Made by a program: the position numbers and the translations under genes
Notes under the pieces: generated by a model
Seen by the model: the letters and a program-made list of their open reading frames with translations, nothing else
Told to the model about the DNA's origin: nothing
Databases searched by the model: none
In this document: positions 2,441 through 44,526 of the stretch, one piece after another
Layout of the letters: each line of letters opens with the position of its first letter
Position numbering within the stretch: the stretch's first letter is position 1
Source: Bryoerythrophyllum caledonicum
Lineage: Eukaryota > Streptophyta > Bryopsida > Pottiales > Pottiaceae
NCBI GenBank assembly: GCA_963971425.1
Contig: OZ020514.1
Location: 12,901,218-12,965,217 of the forward strand
Direction of reading: 5' to 3'
Length of the DNA: 64,000 nucleotides

Positions 2441-2444
2441 CTAT

Positions 2445-5400: not shown

Positions 5401-5958
5401 AGGTCATTTTTTTGAACTTGTAGTCTCCACTCTTTGTGAAGGTGGTCGTCGTCTTCCGCTTGTCATGCTCGTCTCATCTTGGTGTTCATCCTTGTGATGT
5501 TGATGTTGGTTGTCTTCCGCTTGTCATGTTGGTTTCGTCTTGGTGTTCATCCTTGTGTTGTTGATGGTGGTTGACTTCCTCTTGTCATGTTGGTTTCGTC
5601 TTGGTGTTCATCCTTGTGTTGTTGATGGTGGTGGTCTTCCTCTTGTCATGCTGGTCTTGTCATGGTGTTCATCCTCGTGTTGTTGATGTTGGTCGTCATT
5701 GTCTTGCTCTAAGCTCATGCTGGTCGTCTTCCTCTTGCTCATGCTGGTCTTGTCATGGTTATCATCCTCGTGTTCATGGTGCTCGTGATGTCATGTTATC
5801 TCCATCCAATCTTCACTGTTGTTCGTCTTTCTCTTGTTATGCTGGTCTTCTCTTGCTGGTCTTCCTCTTGTCATGCTGGTCTTCTCTTGTTGTTCATCCT
5901 TGTGTTGATGGTGTTGACATATCATGGGCGTTTTGACTTCTATGCATTGAATCCACAG

Positions 5959-7476
5959 AGAAGCGATCCGGATATAGATGAACCTACAGATGGTGATAAG
6001 CCATCCTTGCCTACTGTCAACGAGTTGGAGGGTGGCGTTATTGATTATAAGCTTTCCATTGATCGCGCTGAAGATGAAGGAGAGGTTATTAAGTTGAAGG
6101 AGAGGTTGGATTCTAATTCCATCATTCAACTTCTTTGTTTCAAGCCCCATTCTATATCTCAGCTGAAGATCCCTCTCTGTTGCATGATACCTTTACCCAA
6201 AGTTCGGCCCCTTCTGTCGTCAGACGTCAAGCATTTGGAGTCAGATTTTGTTCATGGATATCGTGAAGGTGATAGGGTATTTTATGTTTCGATCACTGAT
6301 GACACAGGAACTTCTCGTCATGTTTCTAATGAAGTTAGAAGTACTTGGGACCATCATTGGGTTCTAGCAAATGATGTGTTTGAGGAAGAGCTAAAAAGTA
6401 ACGAGCATTGGGGAGATCTATCCGAGAAAATGTTCTTCATTTGGGATGGGAATCATCGCCACCAAGCTTGGATAGGATATATATCTTGATTGCATCGTGA
6501 GGATTCTGATTGGCATTTCTCGGTTGATTCTATCTTGCTATCTTCTGACGGCAGTAATGGAGCCCTCATCAACGCCATGAATGACATTTACAAGTAAGTT
6601 GTTTTCTGGAATTTTTCAATCTATTGATGAGGTTCTCTTAATTCTTTTTACTTTGTGATGTTTATGTACTTATTTGCAATATTGGCCTTTCTTCATTAGG
6701 TCCACAGAAAACGCCCACGTCAAAACAAACTTAGTCCATAGACTCCACCGAGTGAAGACTTATGGGATGTTCAATCTGACCGAGTTCAAGGACTTGTTAA
6801 TTGAGGAAGAATATAAATTATGTGAGAATAGACCTAGGCCCTACGCTTGGTATCCATTAACCTCTGGTGTTTTTATCAGATTCCTCAATCGAGTAAGTGT
6901 TGTCAATTTCTCATTTCAACCCTCTATCATCAATGAACTTGTATTCTCTCATTTTTCAAATTTTATTCTAACCTCAACCTACTTCAGCAAGAGATTGCAA
7001 CTACTACTGACGAAGCAGGACGTCTGTATTTGGAGCGCACAGAGGAGTCTAATCAAACATCCGCCGGTATCACTAAGGCCATGAATGATGCATCTTCGGC
7101 GAAAGTTAATTCTTTTAGAAGTGAATTTGACAAAATGACTTCAGTGTCCAAACCGGAAAACGGTCCAATGTTTCTTGAAGCTGTAAGTGGACCCATTACT
7201 TTATCCATTTTTGCTTCTAATTTACTTTACATATTGACTTAGTTATTTTGAGGCTCATAGATTAATACTCACTACAGTCAACTGGAGAAGCCCAAAATGT
7301 CTTTTGAGAAGTTGCAGAAGATGTCTGCGTCAGTTGTCCAGCCAAAATACAAGGTTCAGTGGCTCGACTGGTGGAACTCGAGCGAGATGAATAGAGTTGC
7401 ATTGAAATTCCCACCTTCTGGTGTTACTGATGAGAAACTTGACTCATGGTTATACAAAGCGGTATTTTGGGCTGAG
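5959..7476 (+). pseudogene. Element A ParB-methyltransferase gene, 5' part
   Basis: Four exons recognisable by alignment to the copies at 18.6 and 29.5 kb: about 5959-6593, 6700-6892, 6988-7182 and 7280-7476, with GT-AG introns at matching positions. The first encodes the ParB-like domain: an IPLCCMIPLP strand, the GDRVFYVSI block and the signature WDGNHRHQAW near 6445-6475. Later exons encode TNLVHRLHRV and the KVQWLDWWNSSE block. A TGA at 6487-6489 interrupts the ParB exon shortly after the signature. The gene is cut at 7580-7588 by insertion of element C; its 3' end resumes at 33.93 kb. The exons for the middle domain and the first methyltransferase motifs are missing on both sides of the insertion, implying a deletion in A. 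It is the most diverged of the three copies. Confidence 0.75.
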
Positions 7477-7579
7477 GTGATTTACATTCAATTATCCACG
7501 TCAAATTTCAAATTTCTTGTATCCTTTCTTACTTTCTAGTTCTCTTGGAATGTTCAAACAATTGAACAAGGCATATTAT

Positions 7580-7588
7580 TGTTTCTTC
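7580..7588. repeat. Target site duplication of element C, left
   Basis: TGTTTCTTC, repeated exactly at 33911-33919. Nine base pairs is the usual duplication size for Mutator-like elements. It lies in an intron of the element A gene. Confidence 0.75.
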
Positions 7589-7680
7589 GGACGAAGCTAT
7601 CTTGCGTGCGGTGGCATGTGAGCGGTGAGCGTTGACACGTGAGCAGTGAGTAATGAACAGCAATCGGTGAGCACTGAGCA
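7589..7680. repeat. Element C left terminal inverted repeat
   Basis: GCTATCTTGCGTGCGGTG at 7596-7613 is followed by GTGAGCGGTGAGCG-type heptamer repeats. The reverse complement lies at 33844-33905. The outermost 7-8 bases differ between ends (GGACGAA versus GGGGGATT), so the exact terminus is set by the 9-bp duplication rather than by sequence identity. Confidence 0.7.
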
Positions 7681-8249
7681 AAAACTTTGAGTAAAGTTTA
7701 TATTTTTTTCAAAAAGTAGGTCTTTTTTTGATGTTGCAAAATGCGGTTTAGGGTAAAAATAGTGCATAGAAGGGCACCTATGACCGTGGATGCAAATGCT
7801 GAGCAAAGAAAACAAGGTTTGTAATCAAACACCTATACTGTGTAAATAAATAATGGTGGTGAAAATTAGTACTAAGCACGGTGTGAGAGGAACCTAAACT
7901 ATCCGGATCATGGTGTGGCATACCAATATTCAAGAGGGTTACAGTTGGATTAAGTGGTGAAAAAAAATCACCCACGTCCCAGCATGGAGATGTTGCTAGT
8001 ATGACAACTCTTTGGGCCAAAGCTCACAAAAAAAAAACAAAGTACCAAAAACCAAAATTGTACCAGGTATGCAATGTATGATAGTAAGGTTGAAGACAAT
8101 ATGAAATAAACACAAATTGACTGAAAACGATGCGGAGTACAAAATGTTGACTAAAGTGGTCTTTTCAAATCATGATGGTGGCCCTGTAGTCTCACCATCC
8201 TTTTGTACTGATAGAAATGCGTACAATGTCCACCTAGTCCAATGCATCA
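7681..8249. other. Element C left subterminal region
   Basis: Non-coding sequence between the left end and the 3' end of the transposase gene. It contains one subterminal motif CCTATGACCGTGG (7777-7789). That motif occurs in the opposite orientation near the right end (33762-33774) and in related form near the ends of B. This position is where transposase-binding sites usually lie in MULEs. Nothing else is recognised. Confidence 0.55.
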
Positions 8250-8540
8250 CTAAATACTAGCTTGCTTCATGAGCAATAGCTGCAAAACACGTTTGATCTC
8301 ATTGAAGCTAAAACTAGGGGCGTGCATAAATGCATCCAATTCGGGATCCAACCCACATAGTATGGTAAATATAAAGTAAAGATGTTTGCAGTTGGAATAC
8401 CGAGGGCGCTTGCTAAGGGACTTGTTGCACATTTCCTTGAAGAACGGACAGCTACAACTTGGAAATTGGCTGATTGATATCATGTAGACAGATACTTGTG
8501 AAATGCTTTTTGATTGGAAGGAGAGAACGCATCCAAACGC
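8250..8540 (-). pseudogene. Element C transposase, C-terminal SWIM fragment
   Basis: Continuation of the transposase gene at 23.03-26.54 kb, separated from it by element B. It encodes the SWIM zinc finger (CSC followed by NCKH) and the conserved C-terminal block HAPSFSFNE. When the 12-bp duplication of B is collapsed, the reading frame runs straight from A-F-G-C at 23.02 kb into V-L-S-F here. This matches the G-F-G-C-I-V order of the B transposase and is strong evidence that B landed inside this gene. The stop is at 8250-8252. Confidence 0.85.
8529..8540. repeat. Target site duplication of element B, left
   Basis: GCATCCAAACGC, repeated exactly at 23015-23026. Because the ends could also begin with GC, the duplication may instead be 8 bp (ATCCAAAC). 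Both sizes lie within or close to the range seen for Mutator-like elements. Confidence 0.85.
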
Positions 8541-8602
8541 AACGACAAGACCGTGTGAGCGGTTGGAGAGCATTCGCCGTGAGCGGTGAGCGGTGAGCGA
8601 AG
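8541..8602. repeat. Element B left terminal inverted repeat
   Basis: Begins AACGACAAGACC, then TGTGAGCGGT, and ends with the heptamer run GAGCGGTGAGCGGTGAGCG. The inverted partner at 22953-23014 aligns base for base without gaps, with 13 mismatches in 62 by my count. Confidence 0.85.
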
Positions 8603-8714
8603 ATTTGATACCTAAAATAAGGATTTTTCAAAATTTGCAGATTTGTTTACTAAATTTGGATATTGAAATAAGTTTTAGGATTTCTGGTTGTCTAAATTTG
8701 GAATATTATATGGA

Positions 8715-8832
8715 CCTATTACCGTGGAGTATTTTTTAGCCGCCCTCTTATGATGGTTATAGGTGATTCCAACTCATCGTAATCTTAAAGAAAAACAATA
8801 AAATCTTGGAAGTTGGGGTCCTATTACCGTGG
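8715..8832. promoter_or_regulatory. Element B left subterminal motifs
   Basis: Two copies of CCTATTACCGTGG at 8715-8727 and 8820-8832. Reverse-complement relatives lie at the right end (22690-22702, 22774-22786, 22839-22851). The inverted arrangement at both ends suggests transposase-binding sites; this is inference from position. The rest of 8603-9130 is AT-rich with nothing recognised. Confidence 0.55.
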
Positions 8833-9130
8833 AACTAATGCCAAATTTTTGTTTCTGACAATTGTAAATATTAACCTCTGTAGATCCTAAATTACTCTCT
8901 TGGGTTAAAAAACCAGGGATTGGTCTGAAATTTGGAACAAATAAAGGAACAGAGCGATTTGCATCATCACATTTGTGGAGTGGAATGAACACTGATAATG
9001 TAGCTTCATAATCCAGAAAACATACAAACAGTAATAGAAATTAGAATTAGAGAACAACTGAACAGTATTGCCTAGGGTTATAATACGTAGGTCTGTAGAA
9101 ACATAATGAGTAACTTATTATCTACCTTAA

Positions 9131-12100
9131 TTAAACACGCTTGTAGGAAAGAATCGCTCGTACTACAGGCATGAGTTCGTTGAAGCTAAGTGTTGGAGCA
9201 TGGGCAAATAAGTCCTCCATCTCGTCAAGCTTGCACACGACTGCATAAACAAAGTAGAGATGCTTGCAATTCACCCAAGACCGACCAGATCGGTTGGCCT
9301 TTGCCTGCATTGTAACAAAGTCCAAGCATGTGCAAGCCGGAAATGAACTGAGCGTAAGAATGTAGTGCTCCAGGGCATGAGTAGTTGAGGAGTCAACTTC
9401 CAAATTGACAATGCAGCCAAATCCTGGGAAGGGTACCATTGTGCGCTTCTGAATTTTTGCCTTAAGAGTGACGGCAGACCCCCATCGCTGAAGTTGTGCA
9501 GCAACTGGACCGCCGGAACGACGCTTCACCACTTTAGTAAAGCAAGATGTAGGATGTTTGTCAGCGTCCTCTGGGATTGGATACGCAGCAAGGTCAATAC
9601 CATCAATTATGGTTGCGTGAAAGTGACGGCGGGGAGACGCTTCTTGTTTCTGTGGAAGTTGAAAACCTGCGAGCTCGAGGGCAATGATCTCCGACCGCTT
9701 CAGATTGGTGCCCCTTTTAACAGGCCAGATTTGGGGAACACTATCCGGGCGAGTAAGAACCCATTTTTTTGAAGTGCCCAATACACAACGATGAATGTCG
9801 TCTTGGCAAAAATAAAACTCTTGTCTTTGGTTCTTACCTGTGTGGTAATTCGTCCAAATCCCCGTATAAGTGGGACAGGCAGTGGCATTTTTCTTCTGTA
9901 TGATCTTCCTTGTGCACTGCTTCCTCGAGATAGCTTGGAGAGCCCAACAAGCTACACCGGTGCGATGTTTTGGTACTCGGGTGATATGCCATTCTGTTAC
10001 AACGCAATTAGATTCCTCCACCCCGGTAACATGTGTAGGTCGAGTCTCGCGGACACGAAGGTTGTCCAGAAGAGAATCTTCGTGTCTTGTTCCAAGGTCA
10101 ACGCCAACGTCGATGTCTTCATCTTCATCAACCTCTTCAAGGACTTTAGAAGTCTTCTGGGCCTTAGCTGACCTAATCTCTACCCGAGGACGGGAGAAAT
10201 TGATCTTCTCCGGGCGGTGCGAGTCAAACTCCGATCCTGGGGGTAGATTGAGCTTGCGTTTAGTTGATCCAAAAATCTCCTCACCTGAAAAATGTGGAGG
10301 GCGTGTCAAGATGTCCGCTGAATTCTGGAATTTCTCCATTGCTGCCTTGATTTTCCTGGGATCTCTAGTGTCTTGGGCTCTTCTCAATCGCAATTCGTTC
10401 TTACTAGGACCAGTACCTCCACGTTCACCCTTAAGGAATGAAATATAATGAGTAACCTTCATGAACGCCCTGACATAATCATCCAAAGTAGCCTCAAAGA
10501 GGTCGTTCCCCTTGTTTCCAGAAGCTTGAAGCCATTTGTTGTGCATTGTCTCAGCGAGGTTGCACCTTGGCATGCTTGCCCGCTCATCGTCCGTTAAATC
10601 CTGGAAACATGTATCAATTACACGAACGTCCAATATAGAAAAGTTTTAACTGAAAGGGTACATCAAGCGAATTAGACAATGAGAATTAGTGAATTGCTCA
10701 CCAAGGTCATAGCTCCACCCCACTGAAGGTAGCGAAAATGCCAAAACGCTAGCCACTGGTCTAGCTTCATAATGTCTTTATCGCTAGTTACGGCCTTCGC
10801 TGAGATCCACCACTCCCTTATAGCACGATAACGAACTTCTGCATCGGCAAGGGTAGTGCAATCCTTGTACTGCTTGCAGAGTACCCGGTGTTGCTCACGG
10901 AGTTCAGACTTGATATGCCTGTCGGTGTGTTCGGACATTGACTTAGTCCAATGAAATAGACAAGTTCGTTCTTGGCCGACCATCTTGTCTTTCTCGCTTC
11001 CGGACCCGTATATGATGCGGACAGCCTTCCAATTTGCCTGAGCGCTGTCTGCCATAAAGCCTTTAAATATTGGCTTTGGATGTCCGGCCTCAATGACGAC
11101 GCCATTCAGACCGTGCCAAAGGAGAGACTGCGCTTCAGTGTCCTCCGACTGCATGTCACAGATTGCGATAGTCATGACCTTGGAGTATACTGGATCGTAA
11201 ACGTGGCATGCCATGGTCGTCCAATTCTTCACACGCTTGACATGGTCAAACATTATCCAAGCGTCTTGTAAATCGCCACCAGGTTGCATTCGGATTACTA
11301 AATCAAGGCCAGAACCAGGACCAACCTCCGACATCTTGAATACAAAAACTTTTCCTTTGCACTGGCCCGGGAACTTGTTCTTTCGGACGTACGCCCAGTT
11401 ACTTAGACCAGCCAGATTTGTAATTCCCTCGATTGGGCCCAGACGGGGGAGTGCTTTCAAACCCGACACAGTATGTCGTAGTTTGGGCGACGTAAACGAT
11501 TTAAATTTGTCCGCAACTTCGAATAACTCATCCAGAGTAAGCGGCTGCATCGTCTCTCCGTCTTTCCTAAGAAGAAACTCACCTAGGAACTCCTTACTAG
11601 CCTCTAGAACAATCTTAGAATGGGTAGCACTTGGCATCCTAGGCACCTGGTCACTACAAAGAGACTTTACCTTGAGGAGAGATTCACGACATTCACCGAC
11701 CTTCACAGGATGGTTGTGCATTCCGACATGAATGCACGCACGAGTCATATCGCCGGGTCCACTAGCATAGTAAAGAAGAGCCTCGCACGTACCTATGCAT
11801 ATTGGAGGCGTTCGACATATTCCACAGACCAAAGTTGACTTCTTTGGTGGGCTGCCACCCACTCTGAACGGATTCTCCGTGCATCCGTCCCACTCAATCT
11901 CATTAACCTCGTACAACCGGTGCTCCCGGTGAAGATAATCACAATCCCGATTAGTGCAGCGAAGGTGCCCCGCGCATGTCGAGTAGCGTAAGGTGAGACC
12001 CATATCGTTCTGGATATTTGTAGTCTTCGTTCGGCACCATGCATGGCCGTCGAACCGCTTGTCCATACCATTCAACATACCCGCTTGCTTTCTCTCGAGT

Positions 12101-12802
12101 CCCGTTGGCTCAAACTCAAAAATCACATCGCCATTGTAAAGGGGGGGGGAGAAATTTTACCCGATGGACAGGAATTGAATTAAAATCAAGGCGTTTCAGA
12201 ACATTTCGCCCACCTGGTCTTGTGATGAGTCTTCGCAGGGAATCTACAATGCTCCCAGGACGTGATGGAGTTGGAAAGCGAGGTGGTTTCGAAGCGGAAT
12301 TGGGTTGGAAGGTGCCAGAATTGGGTTGGTCGGTGCCAGCAGCTCGTGCTTCGAGGTTGACGGTGGCTTGAGAAGGAGCGCGAGGAGGCGACAAAACAGA
12401 ATGGTCCACTAAAGGAGGCTCCTCGTCGTCGCTCAACAATATGAGAGTCTCTGTTCTAGGTTCAACCTTCGCAGTAACAATCGGATTAACGGTGGATGTT
12501 GTCGACAATCCTGGCGTGACAAGTTCAGTGCTTGTTGCCATCTGCGCTACTATAAGACCATTAACTTTGTAGCTACCAGGCAGTAGCCTCCAGAATCGGT
12601 TGCCACCTTCGACAATATCAGGCATTAAGATGTACTGGACTATAACACCTGCATCATCTAGGACCTCTTACTCGATATGAATTGTCATAACATCTAGGTC
12701 ATAACGAACACGAAGTATTGATGCGAAGATAGTGCATGACCCATCAACTGCTGGAGGGATAACTAGTGGAACACCAACACCATGGAATTGAAGAGATGCC
12801 AT
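9131..12802 (-). pseudogene. Element B MULE transposase (GCM1 finger, DDE core, SWIM)
   Basis: Two coding exons, 12802-10702 and 10600-9131, joined by a GT-AG intron at 10601-10701. From the N terminus: an unassigned region; an acidic LILLSDDEE motif near 12440 that resembles a SUMO-interaction motif; a Cys/His-rich WRKY/GCM1-type finger (AGHLRC, NRDC, CGIC, GTC, then HNHP) at about 11.7-12.0 kb; an RNase H-fold transposase core with FDHV, FMADSAQANW and CLFHW (about 10.95-11.3 kb); the LAETMHNKWLQ block; and a SWIM finger (CTC then NCKH) near 9.27-9.34 kb. The fold and C-terminal SWIM are those of Mutator-like transposases, which cut and paste the element. Damage: TAA at 12668-12670 (codon 45) and a one-base frameshift at a run of nine G at 12141-12149. 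The latter could be an assembly error. Exon 2 is an uninterrupted 490-codon frame. The start is the first ATG aligned with the C copy. Confidence 0.82.
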
Positions 12803-13840
12803 TAGAAAGACTGAAATAAGAAAGAGAAACAATTCCTACCAATGTTCTTGCAACATTCTCAAGTTACAGACATGCTGTCGTGGTGTAAGGATGGATAAAC
12901 ACATGATTGGCTTAAATATCTGATGGCGGCGAAAACAATCAATAAAATTATGGTACAAAATAAAATTTTAGGTAGAATTATTAGATCATGAAGAGGACCG
13001 CCGGTGCCGGCGCCCAGTGGTCAGTTCAAAGTGTTATCAAAAGTAACTTATAATTACAGGCGATTGTCAAATCTGATACAAAATGGAATTCAAAATGGAA
13101 AATGGTATTCATAATAGAAATGATCAATTTAGCATTATTATGATTATGAATTTGTAACTCGAGCATAACATTGGATTGACATGAGCAGCATAAGTAAAAG
13201 ATGATTGGCCATAATTATAGGCTGTAGAATTTTGAATTTGTAGGGATATTATAGCAACAACTCTACAAAGTGGTCAAAATAGTTAGTCCTCATTTCAAGT
13301 TAAAGGTAACGAATCTCGGCATTTGAAAATTGCAATGTTATATATTTCAAACCAAACAAATACCTAAACAAACAAGAATAATAATTATGAATACCCATAT
13401 ATAAGTTTTATAGAAAATGCAAGCAGGATTAGAAACAATCATGTGCATGATGGACATGATGTGCGTATCTTTGGATTTTGAGATTAAGCATAGAAAAGTT
13501 GACAATTCATACCTCCTATGTTTGAATTCCTTCCTCTTATTGGTCATTCAAATCGGCGGTGTATGACAATATCCAATCTACAACAATAATTGCACGGAGA
13601 CTAATATCCCATTATGATTGATGAGGCTTGTTTTGACAATTGTGCTTATATGGGCTTTGAGTTATTGGTTTCTATAAATTTCTTCAGTAGATAGTACATG
13701 TCTTTGGGAGAAAGAGAATAGTACTGAATGGATGCCATTAATGGGTATTCCATTAGTCTTAGTGGAGGGGATAATTGTGCGGTCGTTCAACTATATCAAT
13801 GTACTGCCATGTGATATTCTTACTGAGTAGATAAGATATA
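12803..13840. promoter_or_regulatory. Element B central divergent promoter region
   Basis: AT-rich spacer between the divergent transposase and ParB-methyltransferase genes. It holds one isolated copy of the B palindrome, CGCCGG-TG-CCGGCG-like, starting at 12999, far from the main array at 15.2-18.5 kb. A TATAAAT at about 13673 could serve the plus-strand gene. The isolated palindrome in the shared promoter is suggestive of regulation by whatever binds the array; that is inference. Confidence 0.45.
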
Positions 13841-13852
13841 TTGCAGATGCTT

Positions 13853-14146
13853 GTAAAAGTTGACTCCGCAACACCTCCTCATTTAGTTCAGGGAAAGAAG
13901 AAGAGGAAAAAACGCGGACTCCTCTTCTCAAGTAGCAAGCAGTTGAGGAAGGCAAGGATGGGAAAACGTAAGGCCCACATTGTAGAGGATGACTTAGGAG
14001 ATACTCCACGTGTCTTATGCTTCGAGAGCAATCCAAGTTTAAGTTTGCCAAGTATTGGAGAGGTTGCTGGATTGCCAACAAAACATATGGATGTCAACAT
14101 GCCAGGCAAGGAGAAGGACGAGGGCAATCATCACTCTCGACATTTG
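13853..14146 (+). other. Possible upstream exon with basic cluster
   Basis: Open frame following a TTGCAG acceptor-like site. It encodes a lysine/arginine-rich stretch (GKKKRKKRG, then RKARMGKRKAH) that looks like a bipartite nuclear localisation signal, and is followed by a weak donor (TTG-GTACGT). It could be a 5' exon of the ParB-methyltransferase gene, but I find no clear counterpart in element C, so the link is unproven. Confidence 0.3.
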
Positions 14147-15859
14147 GTACGTGTTCTCATTGATACTTCAAAATTTAATAGGGTAAGTTTAGTTTCTTGG
14201 GAACTAACAATCGTTCCATGAAATTCATCTACTTTGTGCTATCAAACTCATTCATTGAATTTGTCATATAACATTCATTTGGGACCTAAGTGAATGTTGA
14301 TATTCTTGATTGTCCCTCCTCCTCCAAACCTCATTTTTAGTGGAGATTGTCACTTACACCACTGTAGATTTAAATCTAGATTTTTAATTTCTTGATTGTC
14401 CCTCTCTTCCTCCTTCTCCCTCTAATTGATGATTTTTTGTTTTGTTTTAGATTGTCCCTCGTCCCTTTCATTTTTAATTATATTAATTACAAAGAAAAAA
14501 ATAAAACTTTTTGGATACCTTCTAGGAATCCTTCTCCAGATTTATTATTACAGTTGTCGATCCAGCTCCAAATCGAGCTGAATCTGAATCGTGGAACTTC
14601 GTTTTTTTTAACATGTACATTTTTGGACTTGGATGAACGTACATTTTTTAAAGATCAGAATGGATGCAGCATCGGGACTTCCCGGGAGGTCATCCTTCCC
14701 AGAACTATTCCGTTATCAGGTTCACTTTGGAGTTCTGATGGGATCTGGAGTAGTAGCCTCTGTATGACCGCATCACGTTTATCCTTCGGAGAAACCCTCC
14801 CACTTATGTTGGAACTGGAGCTCAGCACACATGAACACAAACCCCTTCGCTACCATTAATTTCTGTAGATTGCGATGCAGGCCGAGCAGCCTTCGATTGA
14901 GTCTTGTGAAGAAGCTATCAACGACGGAGATTTTGACAACATGAACTTAAGCGCGGTGAATGAGGAGGATGGCGGCCATGTTGAACTTGATAACAGCACG
15001 CAAGCTGCCGACTCGGCAGCAGGTAAGTATTCCGATTTCTTCCCGTTTCTCTATTTCTCGAATTTGTGAAGGAGAGCTATTCCTCCCAATCTCGCACGAT
15101 TGGAAAGAGATTTCGACGTCCTTGAGATCCTCTTCGTCGATTTGCGGATACACCGAATCTGGCTGTGAAGGGGTCCGCCGGTGCCGGCGAGGGTCATTTC
15201 GTACTTCGTGGATTAGCTGAAATTTGTGGTGATGGGGTTCGCCGGTGCCGGCGAGGGTCACAACCCACTGTATCTACGAATGAAAGTATCGTCAAGGAGT
15301 TCGCCGAAATTTGAAGTGGTGGGGTCGCCGGCACCGGCGGGGGTTCAGATCCAGGGTTTTATGTCGCCGATGATCACCGTGGAAGTGTCGCCGGTGCCAG
15401 CAGGGGTCGCAACTTACAGTATCAACGAATGAAAGTAACGTCTAGAAGATCGCCAAAATTGGAAGTGGAGGGGGTCGCCGGCACCGGCGGGGGTTCAGAT
15501 CCAGGGTTTTATGTCAAGAGTACTCATCGTGGAGGCGTCGCCGGTGCCGGCGGGGATCACAACTCACTGTAGTTTCTCCTTCAAGTATCGTCAAGGAGAT
15601 TGCCAAAATTGGAAGTGGAGGGGTCGCCGGCACCGGCGGGGGTTCAGATCCAGGTATTTAAGTCGCGGTTCATCATCTTGGAAGTGTCGCTGATGCCGGC
15701 GGGGGTCACAACCCACTGTAGTTTCTCCTTCAAGTATCGTCAAGGAGATTGCCGAAACTGGTAGTAGAGGGGTCGCCGGCACCGGCGGGGGTTCAGATCC
15801 AGGTATTTAAGTCGCCGTTCATCATGTTGGAAGTCTCGCCGGTGCCGGCGGGGGTCGCG

Positions 15860-17390
15860 AAGGGCCCCCCAGGCTTCTCAGATACACTCGCACGGTGGGG
15901 TTGGGTCCAGATGCCTTGACTACCTCGCTTCACGCCGATCTTGTCCAGACATGACAACCTCCCACCGACGCACTCCCACACGAGGTATGAGATTCGATGG
16001 ACTTAAAAGGGCTTGGAATGCCTTGCTTCTTGAAGGACTTTTAGACGGGCTTTCGTTCTTGCAGCGATATCTTAGGAGACATGTCTAGCCGCCATAAAAT
16101 TTTATATGCTCACTTCTATTTGTGTGCTCGCTTCTGATTGTGTTCTCGTTTCTGTGTCTTGAGAGGTTTTTCAGCAGTCTTAGGTTTTGGAGTAATGTTT
16201 TGGAGATGTGGTGGTGCAGTTCCATTGATTCTGTATGGCCTTCAACACCACCTGTCGATTTTTGGCTCGCTGATCCTGATTCCACTCGTCATTGTGCCTG
16301 TGAGTGTGAGAAAATTTCGGCTTCAGTGTGAGAACATTTTCCTTCTCTCTCGGCACCTATCACATTGGTGAGGCATATGTTTGATTGATGCATCTGGTTT
16401 GCGTGTTACAGAAAGATTCAACAAAGGTGATTTCAAGCATGTTCATGGTGTCCGGAAAATCTACATTGCTGGCTTAAGTATGTATTCTACTCTTATGCAC
16501 GCCGAATCATGAAGTTAGGGTATCGCCGGTGCCGGCGGGGGTCGTTGTTGGTCTTAAACGCTTCCACCTGATCACTCGCTTGAGGGGTCGCAAGTGCAGG
16601 CTTGGGTCTATATTCTGCCCTGCAGCTCGCCGAATCTTGATTCTGTGGTATCGCCGGTGCCGGCGGGGTTCGAGGAGGGCCTCCAGCCTTTCTTCTCGAT
16701 CACTGAGACTCGGGTCAACCGTGCCGGCTTAAGTATATATTATACTCTTATGCATGCCGAATCCTCAAGTTTAGGTATCGCCGGTGCCGGCGGGGGTCGT
16801 GGTTGGCCTCGGACGCTTCCACCTGATCACTCGCTCGAGGAGTCGCTCATGCACACTTGGGTTTATATTATGCCCTGAAGCACGCCGATGATGCAGTTGT
16901 ACAGTTGCAGAGGTTCACGACATTTTCCCCCGAGTCCGCCACATAAGACCAGGATCAAATAATGTATCTATCGTTAGGTCTTCTGACTTCTGAGTTGACT
17001 GTGCACTACACCCGAATGCACTTTGTCGCAATATTATCAAACATCTCTGGTGTTTTATCGCCCAACAGAGCGATGTAGGGCTTTTCCAGTAGCATATATT
17101 ACCCCTGTGTCACTCCTTTGTTCAGTGGTAGCAACTGAAGATTCACAAGCCGCAAAAAGACTGGCAAATTTGATTTGCTCTTTGGTTCTAGTAGTTTCAA
17201 GTGTAGGGGCCTCGCACCTTGTTAGTCTCGAATACCATGAGGATCCTTTTGCGACCCAGTTCTCCAAAATTGTTTCGGTGCTACTTCAGCGAATTTCGGT
17301 TTCCGGTGCACGATCTGGTGCAGATATTCACCCAGCACTTTGCGTAACTACCTCCCTCAATCCTAGTTCATGATCTTCATATCACTGTGT
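15860..17390. other. Intron 1 filler sequence, element B
   Basis: Between palindrome blocks there are only short frames with no recognisable domain. The frame near 17055-17267 on the minus strand adjoins the kelch fragment and may be part of the same captured gene, but I cannot identify it. Confidence 0.35.
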
Positions 17391-17391
17391 A

Positions 17392-17760
17392 TCAGCGGGA
17401 AACCAGGGCTGCAGAGGGTCTCGTTGTGAGGACAGCGGTGACTGTGGGACTTTCGAGCTCAGGTGTGGTCAAGCTCAGGACCAACGTTTCAGATATGGCA
17501 CCTGTATTATCTCCACCTCCAATGACAAACCAACTGTCGCCCAATGTGACGCCAGCGTGCCCTGCCCTTGGCGACTGTGGGACTTTCGAGTCCAGCTTCA
17601 ACCAGTTGAGCTTCTTCAGATCAAGCACTTAGTCGTCGTTAAAGTAGCACAGGTCTAGTGTTGGCTTCCACGACATAAAGCATGCCTTCCACCACCGCCG
17701 CTGCATGCTGGTAACGTGCCAGCGGCTTTCGGCCAGTAACTGCTACTGGTACCCTCATGA
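17392..17760 (-). pseudogene. Captured kelch-domain fragment (ACBP4/5-like)
   Basis: Minus-strand coding remnant. A first piece (GRKPLARYQHAAAVVEGMLYVV, about 17.67-17.75 kb) leads, after a frame change, into LDLKKLNWLKLD, then PRAGHAGVTLGDSWFVIGGG and SETLVLSL. These are kelch repeats: paired glycines preceded by hydrophobics, with a W at blade ends. The order and wording closely recall the C-terminal kelch domain of plant acyl-CoA-binding proteins of the ACBP4/ACBP5 type. It lies antisense in intron 1 of the element B methyltransferase gene between palindrome blocks. A host gene fragment carried inside a MULE is the Pack-MULE situation. Assignment to kelch is firm; to ACBP4/5 it is likely. 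Confidence 0.6.
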
Positions 17761-20700
17761 TACGATGTGATTGCTTTGATGCCTACCGGATCCGCCTTCT
17801 GCATCTTCGGTGTCTCAGCCTACATCAAGTTGCTTTCTCCTCATTAAATGGCAAGACCTATTCTCCTGAGTACTTCCGGTTGGTGATCACTATATCAGCC
17901 AAACAGCAGGCACGTCTTTCTCCAGCAGCAGCTTGGTGAGCTGGAAGGGGTCGCCGGCACCGGCGAGGGGTATGAGCGTTCCTTCCCAAGTCAGCTTGGT
18001 AAGCTGGAAGGGGTCGCCGGCACCGGCGAGGGGTATGAGCACTCCTTTCCGGGTCAGCTTGGTGAGCTGGGAGGGGTCGCCGGCACCGGCGAGGGGTATG
18101 AGCATTCCTTCCCGGGTCAGCTTGGTGAGCTGGAAGGGGTCGCTGGCACCGGCGAGGTATGAGCACTCCTTCCCGGGTCTGCGAAACTGGCTAGGAGGGG
18201 CCGCCGGTGCCGGCGTGGCATGGGCAAGCCATTCATTTTGGAGATCATTACCATTTTGCATTATCCACTACGGAACATTCCACTGAAGATTAATGGAACG
18301 CAGCCATGAATGGTTCACATTTAGCCGGACATGAGCACGGATTTTGGGCAGATCATGTGTTGTTTGGAGACAATAATGACGCGATTGAAATGGACGGTTT
18401 AGGTGCAGGTCCCAAACAAGATGTTCAACCAAACCAGCAAGACGGGCACGAAGTAGATCTCCATCCTATAAAAAATGAGGCACTCAGGGACCAAACCAGC
18501 ACACATCTGAACACAAACTCGAAGTAGAGGGGGTCGTCGGTGCCGGCGGGGGTCTCGACATGGATTTCATGAATTAATACTGACTATTTTTGTATTGGTG
18601 GATTGCAGATGACCCTATGGATAGTCATCCTCTTGATGAGGACACTATCTCAATGGACGACTTGAATAAGGAGATGAAGGCTTTGATCTCAAAGGAATCA
18701 GTCAATATTGCATCATGTTTGGACAATTTGAGGTTTCAGCCTAGGACAAAGTCCAAGTTACAAATTCCACTTTGTCGTATGATATCATTACCGATTGTCA
18801 GGCCCTATTTGAAAAACGACGTCATGAATCTGGCCTCCCATTTTCTGAGTAATGGTTATATGGAAGGCAATGGGGTTTTTTATGTTGCCTTGGAGAATCA
18901 TGAAGGGAAGGTTGTTCCTGTGACCACAGATGTGACCGATACTTGGAGCCCTCACTGGGAGGCAGCCAATGCAACTTTTGAGAAATACCTTCTTGAAGAT
19001 GAGGATTTGAAGTGTTTCTCCAACAAAATGTTCCACGTGTGGGATGGGAACCATCGCCTTCAAGCCTGGATTCCTATTATTAATGAAGATCATTCTGAGG
19101 ACCCAGCTTGGCATTATGCCGTGGAATCAATTATCTTGGATATTAATGGAGCAGTTGGTCCTCTTCTGAGTGCACTCCATCAAGTGAATTGGTACGAATC
19201 TCTTACTATTAATTTGTATATTTTGGGGTCATTATCTCATATTCAGTGTTATTAATAGTTACATATCAATGCTAAATTTCAGGAGGAATCAGAAATCTCA
19301 TGTGACCACCAATCTGGTTCACAAGCTCTACAGAATTAATAATATTGGAGCACAACCCATTTCTTTCTTCCAAGGTCAAGTGAGTCAAAATGAAATCGCA
19401 CTTGCTGAATCAAAGCAAAAATCAAAACAGTGAACTTGGTATACTCTTACTTTGGATGGACTTAATAAAGTCCTGAACCACGTATTTACACCCTTTACAA
19501 TTCCCTTGGTATCATGAAGTATATCAATCATAATTGTATATTTGTATATTATATTGTTCTTTAACTTTGGGTTGAGTTATTTAATTTTGCACCAAGAGTT
19601 GGGCGAGGCAGCAGCTAACGCACAGATCAGATTCCATGAAAAGTATCCAGATCCTTCTGACTGGACTTCAGAGAAGGCTGCTGACTTCATATCGACAGCT
19701 GTGAACAAAGTCAAGAAACAATGCTTTATTGAGTTGAAGAAACAAGTGCCAACTGCCGACCCCAAGCACGGCCCTGATTTTCTTCATCAAATAAAGCTAC
19801 ATTACGAGAATAACGAGGTGCCTGAAATGACTCAGGAGAAATTGTGGATGTTTTCAACCTCGGTGATGGAGTCTCATATCAAGACCAAATGGCTTGAAAG
19901 ATGGAACTCACCCGCTTCTCTTCGTATTCAATTAAAATTTCCAAAACCACGTTTTGGAGATTCTGAATTTCCAGAGTGGCTTCGAAGGGCTACTTGGTGG
20001 AGTCAGGTTAGTTCCATTCCATTGTGCTTATTATGATTGCTTGGTCTAGTGTTTTTGTTCTATTTTTTGTAATGACTTCTAATTGTATTTTCATATTTGT
20101 TTTCTCAGTTGGCTGTAGAATCCGAGGGACTTTTTGATACCACCGTTGCGGATTTAGGAGTCACAATTGACTATCACCCAGATGGACAGGACCCCATTCC
20201 ATCCATCTCTGAATATGTCGAGCAAATGCGAATCCAACTATGGGATGCCGCATTCTTCCATGAGTTTAAAGTTGAGAAAGGAATTCACAAAAAGTTTTTG
20301 ATTGACGAGCAGGTGGGATTTATGGCTGCTATGCAGCGTGTACTATAACGTTATTTTAAATATATACTTTATCCTACCAGGGCAATTTCCAAGACTCCAG
20401 CATTTTTTGCCACTTGGCTGGATGTGGACAGCGACGATTGCATGATATCTGAAAGTATCCAGAAGTCCTGGAATTCTTCTCACTGGGAGAGATGTGGCTG
20501 GTATCTAGATTGTCCCATCTCAAAGCCTCCACGCTTTGACATTGCAATCAGAGATAGCATTGAACCATCATTGATTGGGATTCAAAAGGTCCCAGCCGTA
20601 GCAGTAGTTGCACCTATTGTTTCGAAAACAAAGGGGACAAAACGGAATTCGACTCGGACTGCAAAGAATGCCAAAGACACTATAGTCTTGGAGGTTCCTG

Positions 20701-22360
20701 TGCCTGTGGAACAATTGGAAGACATCAATGAGGTTATGCCTTCCTCTTCTAATGTTGTTAGTTATCCTCAACCTTCTCAGGCAACTACTGTTGTTCAAAG
20801 CCAATTACCTCCTTCAGTATTGACCTCGCAACATGTGAGGGCAAAGAAGACATCCCGAATTTTGAAACCTGCATCTTCCACTTTCCATCATCCGTCTTCG
20901 ACTGTTTTGTTGGAGCAGACTTCTATCTCGGAGATTCTAGAGACGGGGCCCTCTCATTCAGTGCTTTCAAAAATGCATGCATTAGTAATTGAGGTATATA
21001 ACAATTATTTCATTGAAAATGTGTTGATATAATTCAAAATTTAAGTTCGTTACAAGTCATTAAGATAACTAACTCTTCTCTATTTTGTAGGGGAAGGGTG
21101 ATGCCGCAGGCCCTCCACGATCAGCAGCTTGTCCCCACAATGGTGTGGATTTTATAATCTTCGATGTTCCAGAAGGCCTACCGATTCCTGGTCTTTCTGT
21201 TCCATCTTTAGACATTCCGTCATGGAATGTTTATAAAAAGTCGGATGTTGAGGCATTTTTTGAGTTTGCCGATGCATTTCTCCACAAAGATGGAGGTCTT
21301 TTGGTTTTCCTCCCAAAATCTCCATCAATTAGGTTGGATGTGAGAACTTATGCTGCATCATACGAGTTCAAGATTCTAAAGGATTGGTGGGGTGTTAATG
21401 AACTTCGGCTAACTTCTCCAGTTAGTTCTGATAATACTGTAAGTGAAGGATATTCTAATTCTTGTCATATATGTTTTGTATTCCATGTTTATTAAATTGT
21501 TGATTAAATTTTGATTGTTTCATTTCAGACCCGCCGGTTTCGGATTTTGCTTTTTATCCGTGAAGAAAAGGCAGCAAGTTCCTTCTCCATTCATGTTGAT
21601 CCTGAACTAGCCAAGGTTGGTATTAATCTAAAAGATGACGATATTTTGTTTAACTACACATCCTGTGAGTCTCAAGCCATGAACGGTCCAGTACCATGGA
21701 GAGGAGCTCGTGAAAAGGATGAAGGGTTTCTGCAGATGTTTGTTGAAGCCTTCACAACTCCGGGCTCAGTTATTTTGGATGCCACTGCTGCTACAGGTGC
21801 AACAGTCATGACTTGATGTGATTGACATTTTTCTAAACTCATTAGAATTTCAATTTTCTAAATCTTGCTATGCTTTTGACCCGGTTCAGGTGCTACTATT
21901 CGAGTAGGAAGCAGGCTACATCGGCATGTGATTGGCTTCGAATCTGATCCACTTATCTTTGAAGCCCTTCTTAGTCCTCTTCGACAAGTGTCACCAAGTT
22001 CATCAATTCCACCTACACCGTTTGATGCCTTTGATGACGATGAGGTTCTGATTCGTCGCGTGGCAAAAAAGAATCGTTTAAGTAAGTAAGTTCATTGTTT
22101 CAGTGTTTTTGCCGTCTGGATATTTCAATCCCTTTACAAAGTATAATTACTTAACTATTTTGTTGTTTGGCAGATTGATGGACTCCGCCTATTCTCCGCC
22201 AAAGTCATTTACGCTTCCATCATATGTAGAGACTATTGCTCAAGCCTATGCTTCATTACATTCTCCGCCGTTAGTTCAAAGACATCGTGGTTTCAACCCC
22301 AACGTTCATCAATTTCTAGATGTTGAGGCACTAGAGGGTAGCGAAAGTTCTTCTACATAG

Positions 22361-22952
22361 ATTTTCTATTGTTGTTGTAGTCATTTATATGGCCTTAGTT
22401 TGTTAGTACTGTTCTACTATCTTATTCATATTTTTCATACTTTGTTCCTTGGCATCATACATGGTATTGTAATTCCCTAGCCACTATTGCTCTATGGCAA
22501 ATGATACAATTCACACGTTTAACTTTCATAATATCTTGTTTAGGGGCAATTTTTTATAATCCTGTATTGCACGTGATACCACATACAGGAGATGGAGTTG
22601 TAAGAAGAAATTAAATGCACCATCTGGTTAAATTAAATATAGGCATTGCTAATAATGAACTTCCTCACCATCTCACAATTTTGATTTTTCCACGGTAATG
22701 GGCATCTCTTATCATTTTCATTGTTGTACTTGATTACCTTCGGCTTTTCAATTGCTTTTGAACGAGATTAATTCCACGGCAATAGGATATATACTTCAAC
22801 TAACAATATCTAATTTTCCTTTATATGTAAATATCTTACCACGGTTATAGGATCACGAGACAAAAATTAGTTATTGTACTTGAGAAAGACACACGACTCT
22901 CAGCCCTCAAAGATAACAAATCCAAAAAAAAACCAAAAAATAAAAGTAACTT
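22361..22952. promoter_or_regulatory. Element B right subterminal region
   Basis: AT-rich 3' flank of the methyltransferase gene. It carries three CCACGG(T/C/T)(A/A/T)ATAGG-like motifs at 22690-22702, 22774-22786 and 22839-22851, the inverted counterparts of the left-end motifs. No gene. Confidence 0.55.
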
Positions 22953-23014
22953 CTCTGCTCACCGCTCACCGCTCAGGCCGACTGCTTACCGACCGCTCAC
23001 ATGGTCAAGTTCTT
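22953..23014. repeat. Element B right terminal inverted repeat
   Basis: CTCACCGCTCACCGCTCAGG followed by a tail ending GGTCAAGTTCTT, the reverse complement of the left end. The duplication GCATCCAAACGC follows directly at 23015-23026. Confidence 0.85.
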
Positions 23015-23026
23015 GCATCCAAACGC
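23015..23026. repeat. Target site duplication of element B, right
   Basis: GCATCCAAACGC, identical to 8529-8540. It lies inside the transposase gene of element C and reads A-F-G-C on the minus strand. Confidence 0.85.
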
Positions 23027-26000
23027 CGGGGCAGAAATCATACAAACCTACAAAACTTTCCCAACAATTGAAAGAGCGGATGCGCACATATTCTGATGTT
23101 TCGTTGTCGGGGCCTTCGGATTGCGACGGATGTTCTTGCCAAATCTGAGCTTCGGATGTTCGTCAGGATTTGCCGGGGTGGGAAATAAAGACAAATCAAA
23201 TGTTGAACCATCCTCAGTAAACAGTTTCCGAGGGGAAAGCATCACTCGCTCTGGAAGTCGGAAACCGGCGTTCTCTAAGGATAGAATCTCTGCCTTTGTT
23301 AGAGAGGTACCAGCTTTTACGGGCCACACATCAGGTACTGTAGGCTTAGAAACCACCCACTCCCTTCTACTTCCCAATACACAACGATGGATGTCATCAG
23401 AACAATAAAAAAACTGCATCTTGACCAACGTTTTCTTCTTATAATTTTTCATCATTCCTGTGTATGTTGGTGCTGCAGTACTTTTATTGTCCTGGACAAT
23501 GCGAGCAACACACTTCTTCCCATTAAGAGACTGAAGAGCAAAACATTTCTTTGCTCATGTTTTTGGAAGCCTTGAAATATGCCATTCCCTTTCGTCACAA
23601 GATGTTTCCATCACTGCTCTAACATGAGGAACTCCAAAAGATGCTCTTGCCATCTTGGAGGAAGACTTACATCCTTCTGGGAACCGCCTGGAAAGTCAAC
23701 ATCCTCATCCACAAGATGGAAAGTACTCTTCTCTGACGCTCAGGTCCTCACCCTAGGGCGGGATACACTAATTCTGTTCGGACGATGGGAGTCAAACTCT
23801 GAACCTGGAGGAATATCTGCCTTTCGTTTCAGAGATAAGAACTCCTCTTTGCCTTCCAAATGCGGGGGCCTCGTGCAGAACTCAACAGCTCCTGGCAAAT
23901 CGGAGAGCGCTTCAAGAAATGCCTTAGAGTTTCCGGAGCGATGAGCTGTGTCTTGAGCAACTCGAAGGCGAAGTTCTTCTTTCCTTGGACCCATTCCTGG
24001 TCGCTCACCCTTCAAGTATTGATAACATGACACGACTTGCAAGAAAGCGCGAACCATGTCATCAACAGTGGCCACATACAAGTCATTTCCACGTTTCCCA
24101 GACTGTTGCAACCACTTGTTGTGCACAGTTTTAGCTAAATTGCAAGAAGGCATTTCTGCTAATTTGGAATCGGACAACGCCTGAAAAAAGAGGAAGGTTC
24201 AAATAGGATAATGATTTTAAAAGATTCACAGAAATAAAACAATGTTTGATGAGTGTGCCACGAACGGCTGAAGCATAACCAAATCAAAAAGCGACAAGGA
24301 GGGCCCAATATCTAGGTATGCCGGCAACGGCAGACTTATTATGGATCACAACTACAAAATCAGGTGTGTTCTAAGGTACGCCAGCCAGAAAAACAAACAA
24401 AATACGGTCTAGAAAAGGTACGTACCGATACCATAAAACCTCCCCACTAACGGTACTGAAAATGCCAGAACGCAAGCCACAAGTCCAGCCGCACCACACC
24501 CTCATTTGTGGATGCCCCAGATGATAGCCACCAAGCTTTGATCGCCAAATACTTTGCCTCGGCCTCTTCCATGGACTTTGCGTTCTTGTACTGTTTGCAA
24601 AGTTGACGATGTTGTTCTTGAAGGTCTGCTCTTATATCCGCCTTTGTATGTTTCTCCAGTGATTGTGTCCAATGGAAAAGGCAGGTTCTTTCGTGATTTT
24701 CCATCGGGATAGCATAATCACCGGAGCCATAAACAATCCGCACCGCATTCCAGTTCGCCTGCGCGCTGTCTGCCATGAATCCCTTGAAGTTTACAGTGGG
24801 AATATCGTGACAATAAGCAACTGCATTCAAATTTTTCCAAAAAACTGTTTGCGCTGCCACATCTTTAGACTGCATATCGCAAACCGCAATGGCCAGCACT
24901 CGACAATACGTAGAATCGTAAATATGACAACCCATAGTTGTCCAACCCTTCACTCCCTTCACATGATCAAACATGATCCAACATTCTTCTAAGTCCCCTC
25001 CTCGTTGCATTTGTTTCACCAAATCAACCTCGCTAGCGGGACCAATCTCGGACATTTAGAATACAAACACCTTGTCAGAGTCCGCCCCCTGACCTGGAAA
25101 CCTATTTTCTTAAACGAAGGCCCATTTGCTTAAACCTCTGAGTTTTGTGATGCTGTCCATGACACCAAACCTACGCAGGTACCTGAATGTAGTGACGTTA
25201 TTTTGAATGCTCGCCGATGAGATCTGTTTGAACTTTTCTAACATCGGAACTAGTTCCTCCATATGAAGGGGCTTCTGCTGAACCCCGTCTGGGCCTAGTA
25301 ACTGTTCACCAAGGAATTCTTTGTTGGCCTCAAGAATGATGGCTGAGTTAGTTGCTGAGGATGTCCTCTCCACTTGTTCCCCGATAAGTTGCTTGAGCTT
25401 TGTGGAGGAAACTCTACAGTTCCCTAATTTAACGGGGTGCAAGTGGTTACCAAGATGCACACATCCCCTAGTCATACTCTCCGGTCCGATAACATAGTAA
25501 ATTTTGGCTACGCAAGTACTATGACAAGACGGAGGAACTCTACATAGTTTGCAAACAACAGTCGAATTAGCTGGAGGGTCCTCACTCACTCGAAACACTG
25601 AGGACGAAGTCCCCTCCCACTCCGTTTCATTTAAAAGAGAAGCCCTATGCTCTCTCTTTAGGAAGTCACAATTTGGATTATCGCACCGAAGATGTCCCAG
25701 ACACAAAGACATCCTAAACGTAAGGTTTGAGTCATTTGCAACATGAGTAGTCACTGTTCTTGTCCACGCATGTCCATTGTGTTTTTAATCCATACCATGC
25801 AACAATCCCGCCTGCGTTGATTGCGTTCCTCTTTCTAGAACTGGAAGTTTGTATATAACGTCTCCATCGAAAGAGACAGGTAAATAGTCAACCTTCTCTA
25901 TTCTAATAGAATTTAAGTCGACTTTGCTTAAGAGCGATTTGGATCGGGTCCTAGTAGTCACACTTCGCAAGCAGTCCACAATGCTAATAGGGGCTGCGGG

Positions 26001-26540
26001 GTTAAGGGGAGGCGGAGAATTACTCGGAACAACAACATTGGACAGGGCAGGTGCAGTATTACAAAGGAATGATGAACCGTCCACGGGCGTCCTGGATGCC
26101 TGAACTTTTGGAGCTTCACAATCAGAGTCATCACTAAGCAAGTGCACTACGCTCTCAGGAGGCTCCAGTATAACATTCTGAAGCAATGGTGTAACTTGGG
26201 TTGCGGTCGTTGATTGCTTTGGGGTCAAGGAACTACAAGGGACTCCCTCAAGACTGTCCTTCACACCGTACACTCGATACCTTCCAGACTTCAGCGACCA
26301 TACACCCCCGTGATCAAGGGAAATAGTTGCATGAGCGACAGTGTGCGTGAGCTCTCCTGTTTCTGGATCAAACTCTTCCTTGTCAATATGATGTGACCCC
26401 TCGTGAATTCGAAAGCGCTGACTTAATCTAACTCCACTAATCATGGCCAATCCGTCATCTGCAACAGCAAAATATATAGGGACTCGAGTGGAGTCTCCAT
26501 GAACAACTACAGTATCGGGGAACTGATCCAAAGAAACCAT
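23027..26540 (-). pseudogene. Element C MULE transposase, main part
   Basis: Same architecture as the element B transposase. Exon 1 runs from the ATG at 26540 to about 24426, and exon 2 from 24180 to the B insertion at 23026; the SWIM end lies at 8250-8540. Visible parts: an N-terminal region with a VVHLLSDDSDCE acidic motif; a GCM1-type finger (LGHLRC, NPNC, CKLC, STC, then GNHLHP); the catalytic core with FDHV, FMADSAQANW and CLFHW; the LAKTVHNKWLQ block; and KRKADIPPGSE. Damage: TAA at 25785-25787, 25110-25112 and 25056-25058, TAG at 24447-24449, TGA at 23740-23742, and frame loss in 23.45-23.74 kb. A minus-strand TATA-like CTATAAAT near 26646-26653 lies about 105 bp upstream of the ATG. 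Confidence 0.82.
24314..24332. promoter_or_regulatory. Isolated C-type palindrome half in transposase intron
   Basis: TGCCGGCAACGGCAG inside the intron (24181-24425) of the element C transposase gene. It is an exact 15-bp match to the core of the palindromes arrayed at 28.1-29.2 kb, about 4 kb away. It may be a regulatory site shared by both genes of the element, or a stray copy. Confidence 0.5.
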
Positions 26541-33843: not shown

Positions 33844-33910
33844 ACCGCTCACCGCTCACAGCTCACCACTCACAGCTCACCGCTCACCGCACGCAAGATA
33901 GCAATCCCCC
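33844..33910. repeat. Element C right terminal inverted repeat
   Basis: CGCTCACCGCTCAC-type heptamers followed by CACCGCACGCAAGATAGC, the reverse complement of the left end; then the duplication TGTTTCTTC at 33911-33919. Confidence 0.75.
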
Positions 33911-43819: not shown

Positions 43820-43822
43820 TAC

Positions 43823-44511: not shown

Positions 44512-44526
44512 GCTCCATCTATATCC

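Follow-up and report, generated by a model that had tools for sequence, protein, structure and literature searches.

Introduction

Why should a moss transposon carry, opposite its transposase, a long multi-exon gene whose product ends in a domain resembling a DNA methylase? The question is raised by element B, a MULE-like transposon at 8541..23014 of the window, the whole stretch of 64,000 nucleotides from Bryoerythrophyllum caledonicum that was analyzed here (G000:C1:12901218-12965217). An earlier reading of the DNA letters (hereafter the sequence-only reading) had proposed that the second gene of B joins a ParB-type DGNHR domain to a permuted amino-methyltransferase-like domain, that such a module was recruited from a bacterium or phage and that it may let the element mark its own DNA. 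In this study, these proposals were followed through the window and the genome, a 437-Mb assembly of 894 contigs. The answer that we favor, with about even confidence, is that the second protein may be a self-recognition factor acting on palindromes of its own transposon family, in the manner of the VANC proteins of Arabidopsis, with an anti-silencing or activating effect.

A mobile unit with two divergent genes

Ten copies belonging to two related families were fetched from the genome. The six copies of the c4 family, each of 12.3 kb, are 99.7-99.9% alike, and the four of the c14 family, of 12.6 kb, are 98.5-99.7% alike, in each case when compared with one reference and changes in repeat length apart; this likeness ends at the element boundaries. 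Perfect target duplications (10 bp, or 11 bp in two copies) flank all ten, directly outside the tips GGGGATTGCTATYTTGCGTGC and GGACGAAGCTATYTTGCGTGC. The inverted ends align over 57-69 bp, which is short for MULEs, whose terminal inverted repeats are commonly hundreds of base pairs long. The c4 and c14 elements are a real and recently mobile unit, in which a MULE-like transposase on the minus strand lies head-to-head with a nine-exon second gene on the plus strand.

In the reference copies, the transposase frames comprise 757+491 codons (c4) and 736+487 codons (c14). Both intact families contain FDHVKR, MADSAQANWNA, CLFHW (CxxH), NLAETVHN and a C-terminal SWIM-like CSC...CKH, motifs that fit what we take to be the signature of MULE transposases, a D-D-CxxH-E core with zinc fingers. 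No Pfam model of the MULE transposase superfamily matched the protein, SWIM appearing only at E 0.48, and the MULE-like assignment therefore rests on the target duplications, the ends and these motifs. The target duplication of MULEs is given as 8-11 bp in a 2019 survey (PMC6446971); the ten copies fall within this range, the window element C shows a match of 9/10 bp, and B, with 12 bp, is one above it. Direct translation of the c4 transposase gave no stops, and the two stops printed in tblastn rows of the c4-family transposase were taken as an artefact on the strength of that translation of c4 alone; copy c9 has one stop in its second transposase frame.

Searches of the genome with exon 4 and with exon 2 of another family each gave at least 150 second-gene places (150/150 scored in both, of 1,791 and 1,549 candidates, respectively). 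From the exon 4 list, six places were hand-picked at about every 25th row, one step being replaced (a c4 copy already fetched). A transposase lies 4-7 kb upstream on the opposite strand at five of the six, and none was found within the 3 kb examined at the sixth (L063). In a divergent family (L053-L060, L061, L062; eight places listed), the one place that was read completely shows a transposase frame of 781 codons with 45% identity to that of c4, again head-to-head with the second gene. Identity of this gene to its c4 counterpart is 43% both for exon 2 and for the C-terminal methylase part, and drops to about 24% in the region separating them. In another data set, a second gene (P0094) and a transposase (P0125) each lie on a 275,659-base contig, presumably the same one. 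The sequence-only reading had called for a genome-wide copy search, which produced further intact copies, and its expectation that the second gene travels with a MULE-like transposase inside common ends is borne out by all ten fetched copies, the divergent family and five of the six sampled loci. Judging from the sequences, the pairing of the two genes is old.

Several features of the ends were also recorded. The first seven bases differ between the two tips of an element (GGGGATT versus GGACGAA at the ends of L010 and L022 and at window positions 7589 and 33909), and the tip found beside the transposase in the c4 family lies beside the second gene in the c14 family. A heptamer repeat, GAGCGGT/ACCGCTC, lies within the inverted ends (for example L009 3800-3845 and window 33844-33890) and possibly represents transposase binding sites.

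The second gene and its methylase-like domain

The second gene has nine exons separated by GT-AG introns throughout, spans 1,099 codons in c4 and 1,060 in c14, and is intact in nine of the ten fetched copies (five of six in c4, four of four in c14). In the methylase-like exons, the dN/dS ratio (nonsynonymous to synonymous substitution) is 0.13-0.15 at dS 0.7-1.4, and exon 2, at dS 1.7-1.9, has a ratio of about 0.08; the comparison of c4 with c14 is saturated. Such ratios indicate that the second-gene exons are under purifying selection. A functionless gene captured in passing, as in Pack-MULEs, would suit the broken copies of the window; this explanation was rejected as very improbable, given an intact gene in nine of ten recent copies, dN/dS far under 1 and retention of the gene across very divergent families.

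The full-length second protein gave no match at E 0.001 against 5.8 billion proteins. An exon-2 alignment gave 207 matches at E up to 10 in the protein collection, and the best 120, which were listed, include P0065 from the moss Ceratodon purpureus with 53% identity. No relatives were confirmed among 63 pattern matches in viral contigs or 12 in prokaryote contigs. A bacterial or phage origin of the gene is plausible.

The proposal of a permuted amino-methyltransferase-like domain found support in Pfam, PDB and hhalign comparisons. All three members of alignment A1 matched PF01555 (N6_N4_Mtase; best E 5.2e-6, c4 at 22.4 bits), and the divergent family exceeded the curated cut-off (30.7 versus 26.7 bits), with eight genomic places listed above it; the matches cover the C-terminal part of the profile only, and the divergent family alone passed the cut-off. 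The best PDB profile matches were DpnA, CcrM and RsrI (E 8e-4 to 0.011). Against seven phage ParB-methylase fusions, hhalign gave 91%, or 94% with the divergent family added, and its score was reached by none of 100 column shuffles, nor by the reversed profile. These profile matches correspond to the C-terminal half of the domain (motif I, with GRH..A.E.D) and extend over 62 columns with all rows included. An earlier 190-column methylase alignment, in which one row each of A1 and A2 was lacking, was not reproduced with all rows, and motif IV is accordingly aligned by its position and its pattern; it stands ahead of the motif I half, as in beta-type enzymes. Profile homology of this kind shows that the C-terminal domain is a permuted, beta-type N6/N4 amino-methyltransferase-like domain by real descent.

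The catalytic motif IV of beta-type methylases reads (D/N/S)PP(Y/F/W). DPPY is absent from the main families seen, which have ADIPDG, ADFPDG, FDVPEG, ADLPEG or GDIPEG in its place. The pattern D-x-P-[D/E] occurs in 17 of 17 main-family exon-6 rows, seven of them from B-family copies, as well as in both intact genes, and a G comes directly after it everywhere except in a single decayed copy. At this position, DLVIIDQPF (DQPF) is read in the divergent family. Furthermore, motif I reads FASTG or FASIG rather than FxGxG in most families. Because DPPY is absent yet the exons are under purifying selection, the main families would have kept a conserved function, probably one other than amino-methylation; their domain has probably lost the ability to methylate DNA bases and would act as a module that binds SAM (S-adenosylmethionine) or DNA. 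The divergent DQPF family may still encode an enzyme and is the best candidate here for activity.

These motifs bear directly on the idea of active self-marking, in which the second protein would be a functional methylase, modifying adenine at N6 or cytosine at N4, and would so label the element that encodes it. The authors of a 2025 paper on the brown alga Ectocarpus suggested likewise that a comparable accessory protein is able to bind and mark its own transposon (PMC12477816). Homology to N6_N4_Mtase, purifying selection and the DQPF of the divergent family, which is close to DPPY/F, agree with such an activity; the uniform D-x-P-[D/E] of the exon-6 rows and of both intact genes, and the altered motif I of most families, do not, and we regard self-marking as unlikely. 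Of the marking of its own DNA that the sequence-only reading had envisaged, the main families thus offer little, and the DQPF of the divergent family leaves it a candidate. To judge from the changed catalytic motif, self-methylation, as guessed in print, need not fit all members.

The ParB-like region

The most conserved stretch of the exon-2 alignment is MF.VWDGNHRlqAW, and the DGNHR within it is exact in 110 of 122 aligned proteins. ParB and Srx proteins have a GxHR-type motif after a beta strand. The ParB N-terminal model of Pfam (PF02195) was not matched by the exon-2 region, in which the weak rows were a ParB C-terminal model (E 0.2) and DUF1015 (E 0.14), each in one of 35 members, and profile searches of the PDB and PHROGs returned nothing relevant to ParB. 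With hhalign, the targets being the ParB domains of 12 phage proteins or those of the seven fusions alone, the probability was 0.2-0.3% and the score was no better than that of shuffles: the local scores were reached by 11/60 and 37/60 shuffles with a 10-row profile and by 31/60 and 16/60 with a 122-row profile. The best local match of the 122-row profile to both ParB profiles falls on DGNHR, opposite GHGR.

Of the ParB-type DGNHR domain, therefore, the motif is conserved, and the domain found no support in Pfam, the PDB or profile-profile comparison; likewise, when the translated exons were checked against profiles as the sequence-only reading had advised, N6_N4_Mtase came above the cut-off in the divergent family and the ParB N-terminal domain gave no match. 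A ParB domain is a lead to which, of all these comparisons, the DGNHR motif alone points. It is strengthened by the Ectocarpus paper, whose authors report a ParB-like domain in a protein that resembles this one in length and arrangement.

Palindromes with a common core

Much of the DNA between the two genes is filled by tandem repeats in A, B, C and c14; none were reported in the stretches scanned of c4 (without the last 330 bp) and of the divergent family. Each of the five families has its own palindrome in non-coding DNA, mostly between the genes, and all share a TGCCG core. The c14 family, to which C belongs, has ACTGCCG-N4-CGGCAGT (tandem arrays of C at 28251..29212, between the genes), c4 has GGTGCCG-N4-CGGCACC, B has CGCCGGTGCCGGCG (arrays at 15239..18179, between the genes), A has GGCACCTNGGTGCC, followed by GAGGCCCC (arrays at 2444..5900), and the divergent family has TGTTCTGTGCCGAACA. 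The density is high: the two genes of B are separated by 5.9 kb, in which CGCCGGTGCC occurs 18 times, and TGCCG is present 75 times in 3.6 kb of c14.

Over the five regions, CGGCA/TGCCG is the best shared 5-mer of 512 canonical ones, ranking 7 in A, 13 in B, 1 in c4, 8 in c14 and 10 in the divergent family; none of 2,000 random rankings were as good, and its rank in four control stretches of the window was 129-366. The core had first been noticed in these same families, and it was hence tested in two held-out families from the hand-picked sample. Their transposase-side parts alone showed no TGCCG enrichment, and 2.5 kb more were taken for each. In L065/L070, TGCCG then occurred 24 times between the genes versus 6.2 expected (rank 2 of 512, 0/200 shuffles). 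In L064/L069, it occurred 14 times versus 2.4 expected (rank 3, 0/200 shuffles) in an 812-bp stretch of the second gene that directly follows exon 3 and belongs to intron 3. Two new palindromes, ACCACTGCCGATATCGGCAGTGGT and GGTGTGCCGCTGGCGGCACACC, were found in this way. The families are related, and the palindromes are not seven independent events. The palindrome array of L064/L069 occupies this intron, which is large, instead of the space that separates the two genes.

Genome-wide, the pattern ACTGCCGNNNNCGGCAGT has 193 sites, versus 1 for the reversed pattern. The 50 sites listed of these 193 form 19 clusters, and 31 sites in 11 clusters lie within 10 kb of a listed second-gene copy, where random placement gave 0.25 clusters on average and a maximum of 4 in 10,000 placements; two of the 11 clusters lie in copies already fetched (the window and a copy on C6). 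Palindromes with a GTTAAC core (ACTGCCGTTAACGGCAGT) also recur, at C3:31787324, C4:2430796, C4:11917047 and C2:35063426. Three of the four have no listed second-gene copy nearby, and these palindromes perhaps belong to another family or to non-autonomous derivatives.

The position of the palindromes bears on two further explanations. As a transposition helper, the second protein would aid excision or reinsertion like mudrB of maize MuDR, which is apparently needed for integration (PMC6446971), and the palindromes would be sites of complex assembly. The kept pairing of the two genes across families would follow naturally; the palindromes are internal, however, away from the ends, which bear the different heptamer repeat, and a helper role seems improbable to us. 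Alternatively, the palindromes could be operators at which one or the other protein acts to repress the divergent genes or keep them in balance, with no link to silencing. Placement between divergent genes in most families would fit such promoter autoregulation, as would palindromic half-sites, which suggest a dimer. Against it stand a copy number above the need of an operator, as in the c14 array, an array within an intron in one family and a change between families that resembles the targets of VANC, and we rate it as distinctly improbable. The intron array weakens the operator explanation slightly and fits the likeness to VANC; our estimates are unchanged by it.

Self-recognition as the preferred explanation

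VANC, an extra gene product of the Arabidopsis VANDAL/Hiun MULEs, binds a motif of nine bases, copies of which recur, often in tandem, through the non-coding DNA of its own family, and causes methylation to be lost there (PMC5735166; PMC10398659); its targets are upstream of genes and in introns (PMC5735166). The moss elements resemble this system in being MULE-like elements with an extra gene and a short motif repeated in own-family non-coding DNA, introns included, that differs between related families. VANC is unlike the second protein in carrying DUF1985; the available text neither calls its motif, YAGTATTAY, a palindrome nor mentions a methylase-like domain (PMC5735166).

In the self-recognition reading, the second protein, whose roughly 1,100 residues close with a domain derived from beta-type N6/N4 DNA methylases, would bind the palindromes of its own family through the DGNHR region or the variable linker. 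Binding would keep own-family DNA open or unsilenced, and the transposase would thereby be made from matching copies only, as VANC does for VANDAL elements.

Several observations weigh against this reading. Between the genes of L064/L069, the TGCCG excess is weak (5 versus 2.5, rank 34, 15/200 shuffles). Eight of the 19 palindrome clusters are not near a second-gene copy among those listed (150 each of 1,791 and 1,549 candidates). The exon-2 domain has no recognized fold in Pfam and profile comparisons. The transposase could be the palindrome binder instead of the second protein. Finally, the Pfam matches of the second protein at E up to 10 did not include DUF1985, the VANC domain, so that any likeness to VANC is functional only.

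Similar accessory genes have been reported elsewhere. The Ectocarpus paper describes a ParB-like/methyltransferase gene of 1,104 amino acids opposite the transposase of Sola1-1_Ec32, and it states that similar proteins occur in green and red algal transposons and possibly form a new accessory class (PMC12477816). Compared by description only, this gene is like the present one in lying on the opposite strand, in its length (1,099 and 1,060 residues here) and in its N6/N4 methyltransferase domain, and unlike it in accompanying a Sola1 rather than a MULE-like transposase, in a brown alga rather than a moss. Phage and bacterial ParB-methylase fusions (L042, L043, L045, L046, L047, L049 and L051; BCE_0392, PMC5512222) have the same order of ParB and then beta-type methylase, and their C-terminal methylase half matches the second protein by profile; they differ in being about 400 residues long, in a single frame, with GH-R and DPPY intact, and their ParB half is unmatched. 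DNMT retrotransposons of dinoflagellates and charophytes are likewise transposable elements with a DNA-methyltransferase gene, in contrast encoding C5-cytosine enzymes, shown to be active, in retrotransposons (PMC5890265).

The extra genes of MULEs named in the 2019 survey are mudrB, mutB, vanB and vanC, and no report of a MULE with ParB-like/methylase cargo was found in the literature searched, the available part of this survey included (PMC6446971). The statement of the sequence-only reading that no MULE with this cargo had been described is not contradicted in this literature; the same kind of accessory gene has nevertheless been published for Ectocarpus Sola1 and algal transposons. The accessory class is thus already known, and what appears to be new is that MULE-like elements of a moss contain it. 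Within the literature searched, a changed motif IV that is under selection and palindromes that differ by family also appear to be new.

The one paper found on the accessory class treats it briefly, for a brown alga, and refers to cases in green and red algae. Intact, near-identical plant copies would open the class to experiment, perhaps in a model moss should one carry relatives, and family-specific palindromes with a common core offer a concrete binding code to test. If the self-recognition reading is true, MULEs would have a second route, beside VANC, for marking out their own copies. A bolder form of it is put forward tentatively, as possible and somewhat doubtful: that transposons, probably of mosses, have a self/non-self system in which a methylase-derived protein reads palindromic addresses that change quickly around a constant TGCCG core and work in the manner of parS or the VANC targets, each family activating only its own copies, and that one branch may still be an amino-methyltransferase writing a bacterial-type mark on these addresses.

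Architecture of the window

Three elements are nested in the window, B within C within A, and the target duplications of B and C make the order of insertion readable. The inverted ends, target duplication, transposase and divergent gene first described for B were recovered. Its tips are at 8541 and 23014, its inverted ends (8539-8603 and 22952-23016) are 80% complementary and an exact 12-bp target duplication, GCATCCAAACGC, lies at 8529-8540 and 23015-23026. The transposase frames of B occupy 9131..12667 on the minus strand, with motifs that are zinc-finger-like, DDE-like and SWIM-like, and the multi-exon second gene lies at 18.6-22.36 kb on the plus strand. In this gene, exon 2 (18611..19192) holds the 'ParB-like' region with WDGNHRLQAW, exons 3-5 (19284..20996) hold a conserved middle region and a variable linker, with premature stops in the B copy, and exon 6 (21090..21441) holds the motif IV position, with FDVPEG in place of DPPY. 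Exons 7-8 (21529..22083) encode the C-terminal methylase half with the position of the SAM-binding motif I (DATAATG-ATIRVG...GFESD), and exon 9 with the stop follows at 22175..22360.

Element C (7589..33909), a member of the c14 family, was split by B into 7589-8540 and 23015-33909. Its tips are intact at 7589 and 33909 (GGACGAAGCTATCTTGCGTGC and GGGGATTGCTATCTTGCGTGC), and the two copies of its target duplication, TGTTTCTTC, match at 9/10 bp. B entered C inside the transposase: when the flanks of B were joined by script into an empty site, they were 97% identical to an intact element over 132 bp, ungapped. The C transposase frames lie at 23048..26660 on the minus strand, with the SWIM-like end left of B at 8250-8540, and exons 2-9 of its second gene, with premature stops, at 29523..33420 on the plus strand. 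The second gene thus has premature stops in both B and C of the window, and intact copies occur elsewhere in the genome.

The remains of A (803..7588) are cut by C at 7589. They consist of transposase pieces at about 803-2441 on the minus strand and the first exons of the second gene at 5971-7479 on the plus strand, interrupted by C; the methylase half of this gene, expected in the right remainder, was not found in 11 kb to the right of C. That A and C share the layout of B therefore stood for C, with its tips and both genes, and only partly for A, of which the transposase and the first second-gene exons remain.

Beyond these elements, three features were noted by eye. Polyprotein pieces resembling a long-terminal-repeat (LTR) retrotransposon lie at 43720-49150 on the minus strand, and an open frame of 481 codons at 59797-61242 resembles a DDE transposase of the pogo/Tigger type. 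A single open frame of 322 codons at 62688-63656 resembles a mitochondrial carrier protein and is probably a host gene.

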